From contig NZ_CP033019.1 in the NCBI RefSeq assembly GCF_003667705.1, positions 3,100,001 to 3,164,000 on the forward strand: DNA of 64,000 nt. The letters run 5' to 3'. Positions 2,657-10,400 of the stretch are shown here, piece by piece. This stretch comes from Janthinobacterium agaricidamnosum. GTDB taxonomy: Bacteria; Pseudomonadota; Gammaproteobacteria; Burkholderiales; Burkholderiaceae_D. The position numbers and the translations under genes were made by a program. Position 1 is the first letter of the stretch, and every line of letters begins with the position of its first letter. The notes beneath the pieces were generated by a model. The model worked only from the letters and a program-made list of their open reading frames with translations. It was not told the origin of the DNA and searched no databases.

Positions 2657-2672
2657 CGCAAGACGCGTGCCA
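2657..2672 (-). promoter_or_regulatory. Sigma-54 -24/-12 promoter of the aldolase-importer operon
   Basis: Read on the minus strand the sequence is TGGCACG-CGTC-TTGCG, matching the sigma-54 consensus TGGCACG-N4-TTGCA at every position but the last, with the strict GG-N10-GC spacing. The -12 GC lies 53 bp from the ATG at 2605. The 17-bp elements at 2701-2738 sit about 30 bp upstream of the -24 GG. Confidence 0.85.
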
Positions 2673-2700
2673 GCGCCGGGGCCGTACAAATGACGGAGCG

Positions 2701-2738
2701 CTGCTGCCTGTGCAACAGCGGCTGCTGGCATGGCAGCA
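2701..2738. promoter_or_regulatory. Two 17-bp putative activator-binding elements (CTGYTG-N4-GGCAGCA)
   Basis: The first copy, on the minus strand across 2702-2718, reads CTGTTG-CACA-GGCAGCA. The second, on the plus strand at 2722-2738, reads CTGCTG-GCAT-GGCAGCA. The same element occurs at the TonB receptor promoter and the monooxygenase promoter. Binding by the SfnR-like protein encoded at 9101-10291 is inferred from genomic association and from the position upstream of a -24/-12 promoter. Confidence 0.6.
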
Positions 2739-2739
2739 G

Positions 2740-2754
2740 TGGTACGGATATGCA
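2740..2754 (+). promoter_or_regulatory. Degenerate sigma-54-like promoter facing the broken DszB-like gene
   Basis: TGGTACG-GAT-ATGCA resembles a -24/-12 promoter, but the GG-to-GC spacing is 9 instead of 10. A one-base spacer change normally abolishes sigma-54 promoter function. It points at the pseudogene starting at 2865, so promoter and gene may be decaying together. This is weak evidence from a single short match. Confidence 0.3.
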
Positions 2755-2780
2755 CTGTCTACCAGCCAGCAAGCGCGGTT

Positions 2781-2809
2781 CGGGGTCTGACCCGGCGGGT
2801 CAGACCCCG
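2781..2809. repeat. Dispersed GGGGTCAGACCC-type palindrome, copy 1
   Basis: Perfect 13-bp inverted arms around a 3-base loop (GGC). The core is GGGGTCTGACCC with its reverse complement. Four more members of this family occur in the window, at 13323, 19383, 42604 and 62497, all in gaps between genes. Function is unknown; it behaves like a REP-type intergenic repeat. Confidence 0.85.
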
Positions 2810-2864
2810 GCAGCAGGCATGTTTCGTGCAGCGTTCGGTCTTCCTCACCTTACCAAGGAATCCC

Positions 2865-3873
2865 ATGACCACCGCAACCGCCCCCGCCGTCGATACCGTC
2901 TGGTTCACCCGCTGCCCCGTGCCCACGGCCACGGGCCTGGCCTATAAACTGGGCTGGCTGGACGAAGAATTCGCCCGCGACGGCATCGCCTTGAAGACGC
3001 TGCAGGAAGTGGGCGGCGAGCTGGCGCGCCACCATTACGACCATGGCCTGTCCACGCTCGTGCGCGAAGGGGGCAACCTGCTGGCCTTGCCCGCGCGCGC
3101 GCAAGGAGCACCCACGCGCCTGATCGGCCTGACGTGGATCGATGAATGGCAAGCCATCCTCGTGCGCCCCGGTTCCGGCATCGCCACGCCCGCGCAGCTG
3201 CAGGGCAAGCGGCTGGCGCTGCCCGTGTTCCGCGCCGAAGACTTGCGCGAGAACCGGCGCGGGCGCAGCATCGCGCGCGGCATGAGCCTGGCCGGCTACA
3301 AGGGCGTGCTGGCGTCGGCCGGCCTCACGCTCGACGATGTGCGGCTGGTGGAAGTGGGTGCCGACGCCCAGGCATCGGCCAATCTGGGCGCGGGCCTGTG
3401 GCAAGGCATAGGCCCGCGCGGCGGGGCTGGAAGTGGCCATCGACATCGACGCCCTGCCCGACCGGCGCTTCCGCGTCAACAACGGCACGCCGCGCCCGAT
3501 CACCGTGCATGCAACCATGCTGGAACAGCATTTCGAGCTGGTCGTGCGCTTTTTGACGCAGACCTTGCGCGCCGCGCACTGGGCGCGCAGCCACAAAGAA
3601 GAGGTGCTGGCCATCCTGCAGGGCGAGACGCGGGCCGGCGCCGACGCCGTGGCCGAAGCCTACCGCGACGGTTTTCACCTGACCCTGGCGCCCGACCTGT
3701 CCGACGACAAGGTGGCGCTGTTCCGCCAGCAGAAGGATTTTCAATTGCAGCACGGTTTTCTCGACCGCGACGTCGATATCGACAGCTGGATCGACCGCCG
3801 GCCATTGGAAGAGGCCCAGCGGCGGCTGGAGGCGCTGCTGCGGCTGGAGGCGCTGCTGCGGGTGGCGGCGTAG
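2865..3873 (+). pseudogene. DszB/SsuA-like cytoplasmic binding-protein homologue, frameshifted
   Basis: ATG 2865 follows a good ribosome site (AAGGAA, 4-base spacer). Codons read well from MTTATAPAVDTVWFTRCPVP to about 3408 (GLWQGI), and coherent protein resumes in another frame from about 3412 (ARAAGLEVAIDID) to the TAG at 3871. The family resembles ABC-type binding proteins lacking a signal peptide, such as the desulfinase DszB. Homologues as I recall them carry a conserved stretch just before the ARA segment that is missing here, so a short out-of-frame deletion fits better than a single-base slip. A sequencing error remains possible. It lies between the sigma-54 importer operon and the TonB receptor. 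Confidence 0.65.
3823..3858 (+). repeat. 18-bp exact tandem duplication at the 3' end of the pseudogene
   Basis: The unit CGGCTGGAGGCGCTGCTG occurs twice back to back and adds six residues (RLEALL) to the C-terminus of the DszB-like reading frame. In-frame slippage in a gene already frameshifted upstream fits relaxed selection. Confidence 0.8.
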
Positions 3874-3880
3874 TGGTGTT

Positions 3881-3953
3881 GTCGGCTTACGCTGCGCTAA
3901 GCCGACCTACCGCTGCGCTGAGCCGACCTACCGCTGCGCTGAGCCGACCTACT
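3881..3953. repeat. Intergenic GTCGGCTTA/TAAGCCGAC repeat with three tandem 21-bp units
   Basis: A GTCGGCTTAC half is followed by three consecutive 21-bp units (3891-3911, 3912-3932, 3933-3953), each ending in AGCCGACCTAC. The first unit pairs with the leading half-site. A related element with the same GTCGGCTTA and TAAGCCGAC arms lies at 37233-37320. Confidence 0.8.
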
Positions 3954-8867: not shown

Positions 8868-8937
8868 GCGTGGACTCCTGTCGTGGGTCGAAGAAAACAC
8901 CGCCGCACATTGGCGCGGCGGCCTGCCCTTCCCTCCT

Positions 8938-8953
8938 CGCAGAAAGCATGCCA
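8938..8953 (-). promoter_or_regulatory. Sigma-54 -24/-12 promoter of the two-monooxygenase operon
   Basis: The minus strand reads TGGCATG-CTTT-CTGCG, with exact GG-N10-GC spacing and a good -24 half. The -12 half matches only in the core TGC. The -12 GC is 72 bp from the ATG at 8867, with activator-like elements immediately upstream at 8982-9040. Confidence 0.7.
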
Positions 8954-8981
8954 TGCCCCGTGGGTCCGCCAGCGCCATTCT

Positions 8982-9040
8982 CTGTTGATTTGGCAGCAAT
9001 CAGCTGCATCCACGGCAGCAGCGTGCTGCACGCGCAGCAG
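8982..9040. promoter_or_regulatory. Cluster of three 17-bp putative activator sites upstream of the monooxygenase operon
   Basis: Site 1 at 8982-8998 is CTGTTG-ATTT-GGCAGCA, identical to the best site upstream of the TonB receptor. Site 2 at 9004-9020 is CTGCAT-CCAC-GGCAGCA. Site 3 at 9024-9040 on the minus strand is CTGCTG-CGCG-TGCAGCA. All lie 30-90 bp upstream of the -24 GG at 8951-8952. Confidence 0.6.
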
Positions 9041-9044
9041 CCAT

Positions 9045-9081
9045 GAAAAAAGCCGGAGCCGCAGCGCTGCGGGTCCGGCTC
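9045..9081 (-). terminator. Rho-independent terminator after the SfnR-like gene
   Basis: On the minus strand AGCCGGA (9080-9074) pairs with TCCGGCT (9057-9051), with an additional inner CCCGCAGC/GCTGCGG pairing, followed by six T. It directly follows the stop codon of the regulator at 9101. Confidence 0.8.
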
Positions 9082-9100
9082 CAGGAGATCCATCACGCGC

Positions 9101-10291
9101 CTAGTCGATGGCGCCCGCCTTTTTCAAAAAGGTGCGCAGGATGTTGCGGCTCAGGTTCAGGTGTTTCGCCGTACGTACCTGGTTGCGCTCATTGCGCTCC
9201 CACGCGGCGCGCACCAGTTCCTGCTGCATCGCTTCGAATTCCACGGCCTCGCCCGAGTCGAGCAAGGCTTGCCAGGCGCGGGCAAAGCGCTCGGCGGCCA
9301 ATAAATCGTCCTGGCCGGCCGCGCCGTGGGCCGCGTAGGCGATGTCGGCGCCGCCGGCCCACGCGTCCGGCACGGGCACAGGGGCGGATGCGGGCGCCGG
9401 AGCGCGGTGCCAGCCCGACAAGCTCAGGTCTTCGGCGCGCACGACGCCGCTGCGGCACACGAGCAGCGCGCGGTGGATGACGTTTTCCAGCTCGCGGATA
9501 TTGCCCGGCCATGGATAGCCGAGCAAGGCCTCGTGCGCATCGAGGTCCAGCTCCACCTCGCCCAGATGCAGGCGCTGCGCATAGATGGCCATGAAGTGGC
9601 GCGTCAGCGGCATGATGTCGCCCGGGCGCTCGCGCAGGGGACGCAGCGGCAGGCCGATCACCTGCAGCCGGTAATACAGGTCTTCGCGGAATCGCCCGGC
9701 CCGCACGGCTTCGGCCAGGTCCACGTTCGTGGCGGCGATCAGGCGCACGTCGATGGGGATGGCGCGCCGCGCGCCCAGGCGCACCACTTCGCGCTCCTGC
9801 AGCACGCGCAGCAGCTTGACCTGCATCGCCAGCGGCAAGTCGCCGATTTCATCGAGGAACAGGGTGCCGCCGCTGGCCGTCTCGAACCAGCCCGGCTTGC
9901 CCTGCTGCGCGCCCGTAAATGCGCCCTTTTCATAGCCAAACAGTTCGCTCTCGACCAGGGTTTCGGAAAACGCGCCGCAGTTGATCGCCACGAAAGTCTG
10001 CTCGGCGCGTCCGCTCAAGCCGTGCACGTGGCGCGCAATCAGTTCTTTTCCCGTCCCCGTCTCACCCGTGATCAGCACCGTCGCCTCGCTGGGCGCGATG
10101 CGTTCGATCAGTTCGTGCAACTGGCGCGAACGGGGGTCGGCAAAGACAAAGGCCGTGGCGCGCACCAGCAAGCTCATTTGCTGCGGGTCGCGGAAGGCGA
10201 CGAGCGCACCATCATCGTCGGCGCTGGCGCCACGGGCAAGGTGGGCGCTGCGCGCGAAATCGCTGCTGAAATTGTGGGCTAAGAGTTCCAT
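9101..10291 (-). CDS. sfnR: SfnR-like sigma-54-dependent transcriptional activator
   Basis: A 396-residue enhancer-binding protein. From ATG 10291 there are only about 55 residues before the AAA+ domain, so it has no receiver, PAS or GAF sensor, as in SfnR. Walker A GETGTGKE is at residues 76-83, the sigma-54-contacting GAFTGA at 123-128, Walker [11 protein letters not shown] follows, and a Fis-type helix-turn-helix ([21 protein letters not shown], given as end motifs) closes the protein. Without a sensor its activity is probably set by its own expression, typically under sulfate-starvation control. It is divergent from the monooxygenase at 10449 and flanked by four -24/-12 promoters that it is well placed to drive. 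Symbol by family and context. Confidence 0.85.
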
Positions 10292-10384
10292 GGGCCGACT
10301 ATACCGCGCGCCATCTGCAGGCGTGAACGAATGGTGCCGCGCTAGCTTATCCGGATTTTGCATATGCGGGCGCTGGCCCCTTGC

Positions 10385-10400
10385 TGGCCCGAAGCTTGCA
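10385..10400 (+). promoter_or_regulatory. Sigma-54 -24/-12 promoter of the NtaA/DszA-type monooxygenase
   Basis: TGGCCCG-AAGC-TTGCA differs from TGGCACG-N4-TTGCA at one base and has exact GG-N10-GC spacing. The -12 GC is 50 bp upstream of ATG 10449. I see no CTGYTG-N4-GGCAGCA element between it and the divergent regulator gene. Confidence 0.8.

Follow-up and report, generated by a model that had tools for sequence, protein, structure and literature searches.

Sulfonates, sulfate esters, and other organosulfur compounds are said, in a passage of PMC3839906, to make up more than 95% of the available sulfur in aerobic soils. Among the closest described systems to the locus examined here are the Pseudomonas regulons of SfnR (SfnR1/SfnR2; sfnFG, sfnA, and msu), whose regulator is a sensor-less sigma-54 activator carrying a GAFTGA motif; SfnR is, according to the titles of cited papers, under CysB control in Pseudomonas putida. 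The Pseudomonas sft/ats sulfate-ester cluster is described, in passages of PMC3596284, as encoding the TonB-dependent receptor SftP with sulfur-scavenging genes and an ATP-binding cassette (ABC) transporter. For the desulfinase DszB of the DszABC enzymes, part of PMC6100217 implicates C27, H60, and R70 in catalysis, the last of which lies within a conserved RXGG motif. The stretch analyzed here (the window) covers 64,000 nucleotides of Janthinobacterium agaricidamnosum, bases 3,100,001-3,164,000 of a 6.36 Mb genome in one contig, and contains a regulator gene of the same clade as SfnR, surrounded by genes for a TonB-dependent receptor, an ABC transporter, and flavin-dependent monooxygenases (Table 1). 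We consider it likely that this locus is a sulfur-scavenging regulon under an SfnR-type enhancer-binding protein, and its import and breakdown genes are predicted to be switched on together.

Conservation was assessed in 16 loci, namely the window, the nearest named locus (Janthinobacterium lividum HSC-65S10, L001; 96% regulator identity and 89-96% identity of the DNA pieces), and 14 further relatives (L141-L154), for which Janthinobacterium as genus is taken from a "same genus" label; 14-21 kb were inspected at each. A sequence-only reading had placed four -24/-12 sites before the aldolase-ssuA-ssuC genes, the TonB receptor, a pair of luciferase-like monooxygenases (LLM), and ntaA. Direct reading and a consensus scan recovered all four, each with the exact GG-N10-GC pattern. 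The distances of 50-72 bp to the gene starts proved roughly right, with 40, 52, 71, and 49 bp counted from the near end of the site to the ATG (for the aldolase, 40 bp lead to the ATG at 2617 and 52 bp to a second ATG). That list of promoters was nevertheless incomplete, as a fifth sigma-54-type site on the forward strand (2815-2830) had been overlooked before a divergent DszB-like gene. The fifth site has three mismatches to the strict consensus TGGCACGNNNNTTGCW in the window and reads GGCAC in 13 of the 16 loci. With at most one mismatch, TGGCACGNNNNTTGCW is matched 110 times in the 6.36 Mb genome versus 50 times for a reversed control; within the 7.7-kb stretch holding the sites, there are three matches versus about 0.13 predicted at the genome rate. 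The weakest site, at 8938, departs from TGGCACGNNNNTTGCW at three positions, yet its GG-N10-GC pattern is kept in all 16 loci. The -24/-12 sites probably act as sigma-54 promoters; rpoN is present in the genome.

Three of the sigma-54 intergenic regions share a further element. The palindrome TGYTG-N6-CARCA occurs exactly six times in the window, twice in each of the regions upstream of the divergent aldolase and DszB-like genes, the receptor, and the LLM pair, and is a candidate upstream activating sequence (UAS). All six palindromes, with spacings of 21, 60, and 41 bp, were found in 16/16 loci, without further ones in the DNA inspected. First-order simulations yielded 0.5 palindromes per 64 kb (maximum of three in 100 runs). 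Across the three regions, invariant columns number 57/60 in the palindrome arms, 20/36 in the centers, and 335/647 in the remaining sequence.

The regulator itself fits the SfnR type. Its GAFTGA motif and its lack of a sensor domain, both reported by the sequence-only reading, were borne out: only the AAA+/sigma-54-activator and lid domains pass the Pfam cut-offs, from residue 51 onward. In a tree of 54 proteins, all 27 SfnR-type rows are separated from 27 other activators by a 100/100 branch, within which the window regulator belongs to a 15-row Oxalobacteraceae branch (100/100), and the Pseudomonas aeruginosa and Burkholderia proteins form a separate 11-row branch (98/87). The rows have in common a C-terminal helix-turn-helix signature, NQ-x-x-(T/A)-(A/G)-x-x-L-x-x-(S/T)RN, recognized by eye. 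Visual inspection and shared 8-mers served to compare the upstream DNA of 11 regulator genes. In 11/11, a box distinct from the palindrome, followed by a TATA element (TATAGT in 8/11, TATATT in 3/11), is kept with few changes; the box is retained also at loci without ntaA. Such an arrangement resembles a sigma-70 promoter combined with a box for an activator; the box may be a CysB-type site.

Comparisons across loci are better tests of the palindrome than counts in the window. Another 22 loci, around more distant regulators, were examined (L155-L160, L176-L190, and L192, of which G011, a genome of the same genus, and G068 each supply two); here a palindrome was scored as linked when a sigma-54 site with at most two mismatches lay 6-120 bp away. 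This applied to 31 of 45 palindromes. With spacers of N4, N5, N7, and N8 and with the reversed motif, the figure was 0/16, and with N11 it was 0/9; N2 (1/11), N10 (1/4), and N12 (1/7) gave single cases. In P. aeruginosa (L187), a palindrome at 4921 and a sigma-54 site at 5020 precede msuE, which starts at 5078; ssuD, a gene of the acyl-CoA dehydrogenase family, and a gene for a sigma-54 regulator come next. A palindrome with a sigma-54 site also lies upstream of msuE-sfnG in Burkholderia glumae and B. pyrrocinia (L189, L190), and a similar arrangement is seen in a Paraburkholderia record without annotation (L188). At E ≤ 1e-130, the regulator is encoded in 25 of 294 genomes of the family; ten of the 25 belong to other genera, and in six of these ten the receptor/LLM cluster lies near it.

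Several observations weigh against a regulon so defined. The palindrome counts in the window are post hoc because the motif was derived from those very sequences. Genome-wide, the palindrome occurs 107 times (35 for the reversed control), thus 101 times outside the window, and among 52 of these 101 that were examined, only one has a sigma-54 site nearby at up to two mismatches and four at up to three. For the six palindromes of the window, these numbers are 3/6 and 5/6, from which it follows that the palindrome alone is common and its combination with a sigma-54 site rare. In the 22 distant loci, spacers N3 (8/24) and N9 (5/9) were also found near sigma-54 sites; these and the other off-spacer matches (N2, N10, N12) are probably due to overlapping CTG repeats. 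The strict palindrome is absent from the stretches fetched for three of the 22 loci (L177, L186, and L192), and the enzyme cluster was not found in those fetched for four of the ten out-of-genus genomes (L177 and L181-L183). Finally, the palindromes before the receptor in L176, L179, L180, and L192 are degenerate, with one or two mismatches, such as chance could yield. Apart from the exceptions just given, other spacers and the reversed motif were dropped as equally good descriptions after the 22-locus comparison. A candidate further target in the same genome (C1:2053548) was likewise dropped, since the sigma-54 match is oriented against the genes at that place. In another genus, palindrome pairs 31 bp apart accompany a sigma-54 site at L181:15138-15840, L182:3813-4503, and L183:15087-15754 (two mismatches in L181 and L183, three in L182); the regulator might also control the small gene downstream, which has a weak rhodanese match.

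How far the regulon extends is most debatable for ntaA. It may be, though we hold this to be rather doubtful, that all five promoters form one regulon and that the regulator drives ntaA through degenerate or distant sites. Every one of the 11 loci with ntaA retains its sigma-54-type site, as do two of the five without the gene. Moreover, a 46% NtaA homolog in L185 is accompanied by a palindrome at 15536 and a sigma-54 site at 15424, and in G068 a set with ntaA (80%), aldolase-like, and DszB-like genes is preceded by the site TGGCCCGAAGTTTGCT. Against this, no conserved palindrome was found upstream of ntaA even at two mismatches, and 5 of the 15 relatives (L142, L143, L146, L149, and L152) lack ntaA at the locus with the rest retained (an absence that refers to the locus, as the rest of those genomes was not searched). 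Because its conserved site has no palindrome, ntaA is only a doubtful member. As it stands, the claim that four promoters answer to one activator is not supported, since the palindromes occur at three of them; the ntaA promoter resembles a sigma-54 promoter. The G068 set spans L192:13687-19499, where the aldolase-like (35%) and DszB-like (37%) genes stand with ntaA beside a second TonB receptor (39%) and form a parallel cluster with a comparable set of genes.

The TonB receptor, by contrast to ntaA, carries two palindromes and a sigma-54 site in 16/16 loci. Its domains place it in the TonB-receptor class. Because its closest solved relatives are siderophore-type (the pesticin receptor as the best at E 1.4e-17 and the ferripyoverdine receptor at E 2e-16; both low-scoring), iron uptake is a rival, in which a siderophore receptor would have come to lie in the cluster by chance, outside the sulfur unit; its NCBIfam matches are also to siderophore or vitamin B12 receptors, far below the cut-offs. 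This is very improbable in view of the promoter region just described and of what recurs elsewhere. A separate sigma-54 site (two mismatches) precedes the receptor gene in L176, L179, and L180 of one genus and L192 of another; in a third genus (L178 and L184), the receptor gene follows less than 100 bp behind the LLM genes with no separate promoter in between, apparently in one operon with them. In L159, a 41% receptor adjoins a 54% regulator, with a palindrome at 10092 and a sigma-54 site at 10191, followed by ssuC- and ssuB-like genes. Receptor orthologs were found in 17 of 120 relatives, exactly the 17 with the regulator at at least 73% identity (weaker regulator relatives occur in other genomes of the 120). 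This co-occurrence is owed partly to linkage; in G068, receptor and regulator are about 21 kb apart. The least expected member of the sequence-only reading can thus be retained, and sequence support exists for its central idea as well, in which import across the outer and the inner membrane and the enzymes of C-S cleavage are tied into a single sigma-54 unit.

It is equally improbable that the palindromes serve a different regulator, with the neighboring SfnR-type protein working elsewhere. In favor of this, the regulator occurs without a strict palindrome in the L177 and L186 stretches, but the palindrome recurs beside SfnR-type regulators of distant families that have the helix-turn-helix signature in common, and the genome holds a single SfnR-type match at E ≤ 1e-80. 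A chance origin of the sites, as look-alikes in DNA rich in GC, is hardly credible and was dropped: a loose sigma-54 consensus with up to three mismatches is no commoner in the window than in shuffles (351 matches versus 356.7 expected), but the excess over the genome rate, the GG-N10-GC pattern at the same place in 16/16 loci for four promoters, and the common palindromes stand against it.

The gene behind the fifth site shares a palindrome pair with the aldolase operon. In the window it is frameshifted, and full-length readings exist in L142, L145, and L150. The intact L142 homolog matches DszB (PDB 2de2) at E 1.2e-13 over residues 7-331, and this was the only PDB entry to score below E 1. 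CPVP is found in 9/14 and H-N9-RXGG in 10/14 DszB-like proteins, including the intact homologs of the window gene, and both in 0/6 SsuA-type proteins examined. Exceptions are L176_2, L179_2, and L180_2, which lack the Cys, L159_1, which has Ser there, and L192_1, which has the Cys without PVP. No signal peptide was apparent by eye in the DszB-like protein. A reading as an SsuA-type binding protein was dropped on account of the PDB match and the catalytic residues, and the gene looks like a relative of DszB-type desulfinases. Pfam NMT1 also matches, and a paralog scores 66 bits to TIGR01728, under the cut-off; since DszB-like proteins belong to this wider NMT1/SsuA family, we only infer the desulfinase function. 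Among 120 listed relatives, most of those with a name are annotated as substrate-binding proteins and a single one as a desulfinase. Between the broken gene and the receptor (3884-3955), the window contains short direct repeats of CTGCGCT-AGCCGACCTAC units, of which L001 has fewer.

Domain calls on the window proteins used the Pfam cut-offs and the curated NCBIfam/TIGR cut-offs. Neither LLM protein reaches the SsuD equivalog TIGR03565 (267 and 158 bits versus 518.2). Left of the window (L191), the same strand as the aldolase operon continues with a second permease-like reading (36%), a major facilitator superfamily protein, an ABC ATPase, another SsuA-like protein, and a second, intact DszB-like gene (L191:7908-8978). 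L191:3806-6496 (G000:C1:3091806-3094496) encodes an 897-aa protein combining polysaccharide deacetylase, Peptidase_C14 (caspase-like), and TPR domains.

Table 1. Features of the candidate regulon (window coordinates)
Feature	Coordinates	Strand	Evidence
SsuC-type permease, extends beyond window	1..760	-	
SsuA-type substrate-binding protein	757..1830	-	TIGR01728 88 bits, below cut-off 163.5; N-terminal signal-like stretch
Class II aldolase-family protein	1853..2617	-	PF00596, E 3.9e-13
Sigma-54 promoter, aldolase-ssuA-ssuC (probable)	2657..2672	-	TGGCACGCGTCTTGCG; GG-N10-GC in 16/16 loci
UAS 1, common to divergent promoters (candidate)	2702..2717	.	TGCTGCCTGTGCAACA; 16/16 loci
UAS 2 (candidate)	2723..2738	.	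TGCTGGCATGGCAGCA; 21 bp from UAS 1 in 16/16 loci
Fifth sigma-54-type site, before DszB-like gene	2815..2830	+	AGGCATGTTTCGTGCA; GG-N10-GC in 16/16 loci
DszB-type desulfinase relative (predicted), frameshifted	2865..3873	+	62 bp missing at 3409/3410 compared with L001
TonB-dependent receptor, 790 aa	4009..6381	-	PF00593 + PF07715
Sigma-54 promoter, TonB receptor (probable)	6433..6448	-	GGGCACGCCACTTGCA; GG-N10-GC in 16/16 loci
UAS 3, upstream of TonB receptor (candidate)	6518..6533	.	TGTTGATTTGGCAGCA; 16/16 loci
UAS 4, upstream of TonB receptor (candidate)	6578..6593	.	TGCTGTCGCGGCAACA; 60 bp from UAS 3, 16/16 loci
SsuD-like LLM monooxygenase, second of pair	6604..7758	-	PF00296; NF001939 273 bits, cut-off 510
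SsuD-like LLM monooxygenase, first of pair	7785..8867	-	PF00296; TIGR03565 158 bits, cut-off 518
Sigma-54 promoter, LLM pair (probable)	8938..8953	-	TGGCATGCTTTCTGCG; GG-N10-GC in 16/16 loci
UAS 5, upstream of LLM pair (candidate)	8983..8998	.	TGTTGATTTGGCAGCA; arms kept in 16/16 loci, center varies
UAS 6, upstream of LLM pair (candidate)	9024..9039	.	TGCTGCACGCGCAGCA; 41 bp from UAS 5, 16/16 loci
SfnR-type sigma-54 activator (P0001), 396 aa	9101..10291	-	GAFTGA; PF00158; tree
Regulator promoter region (putative)	10298..10357	-	Box AATCCGGATAAGC-N12-ATTCGTTC at 10325-10357; TATAGT 10298-10303
Sigma-54-type site, ntaA	10385..10400	+	TGGCCCGAAGCTTGCA; GG-N10-GC in 13/16 loci
NtaA/DmoA-family FMN (flavin mononucleotide) monooxygenase	10449..11780	+	TIGR03860 522 bits, above cut-off 279.7

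The sites, palindromes, conservation, regulator clade, and enzyme families are established at the level of sequence; we infer binding, transcription, the starvation signal, and the substrates. In the model that we favor, a sigma-70-type promoter behind the conserved box would drive the regulator gene, and because the protein has no sensor and such a promoter of its own, how active it is probably depends on how much of it is present. It would bind the paired 16-bp palindromes, contact sigma-54 polymerase poised at the -24/-12 sites, and open the promoters of the aldolase-ssuA-ssuC operon (probably with the same-strand genes after it), the divergent DszB-like gene, the TonB receptor, and the two SsuD-like monooxygenases, presumably under sulfate starvation. 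The receptor would carry an organosulfur compound through the outer membrane and the ABC transporter would carry it through the inner membrane; monooxygenases using reduced FMN (FMNH2) and the desulfinase would cut C-S bonds, and the aldolase may process the carbon fragments.

A wider proposal, which we put forward tentatively, is that in the Oxalobacteraceae SfnR-type branch, a single sigma-54 switch governs a complete route of C-S cleavage across both membranes, made up of the receptor, FMNH2 monooxygenases, and DszB-type desulfinases. If true, a dedicated TonB receptor would import sulfonates, sulfones, or sulfinates that are too large or too scarce for porins, the monooxygenases would attack them, and DszB-type desulfinases, mostly labeled as ABC binding proteins, would free sulfite. 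The analysis also suggests that desulfinases occur in a family mostly labeled "ABC transporter substrate-binding protein", which would matter for annotation and in the search for desulfurizing enzymes. With the conserved activator palindrome, the promoter list becomes a regulon that can be tested, an outer-membrane receptor among its members. Outer-membrane uptake is seldom part of described sulfur regulons; a search of the open-access literature found no SfnR regulon with a TonB receptor (weak evidence, as the main SfnR papers lie outside it) and no paper stating the SfnR binding site.

Compared with the known enzymes, the DszB-like protein, in its intact homologs, matches DszB over nearly its full length and keeps C27, H60, and RXGG, although its identity to DszB is low. 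The NtaA-type protein matches DszA (E 8.2e-79), although 7e36, YtnJ/MoxC, and 3sdo, which are not DszA, score better. The LLM pair shares its fold family with SsuD, MsuD, and SfnG, its best solved relatives, but differs from SsuD and SfnG in scoring far below both cut-offs. As far as the passages on sft/ats allow a likeness by description, that cluster also encodes a TonB receptor together with sulfur-scavenging genes and an ABC transporter; it differs in having a LysR-type regulator and sulfatases, whereas the window has a sigma-54 activator and C-S monooxygenases. In its build, the locus matches an SfnR system, with a sensor-less activator, paired palindromes, and sigma-54 promoters; a palindrome and a sigma-54 site stand before msuE in P. 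aeruginosa and Burkholderia too (a likeness between the loci compared here). Unlike the Pseudomonas SfnR proteins, the window regulator belongs to a separate Oxalobacteraceae branch, and its candidate targets comprise a TonB receptor, an aldolase together with an ssu-type transporter, an SsuD-like pair, and DszB-like genes, whereas those of SfnR are msuEDC or sfnG. Judged by its genes and promoter regions, the locus is of the known SfnR/sigma-54 sulfur-starvation regulon type, here extended to the outer membrane and with a different set of targets.

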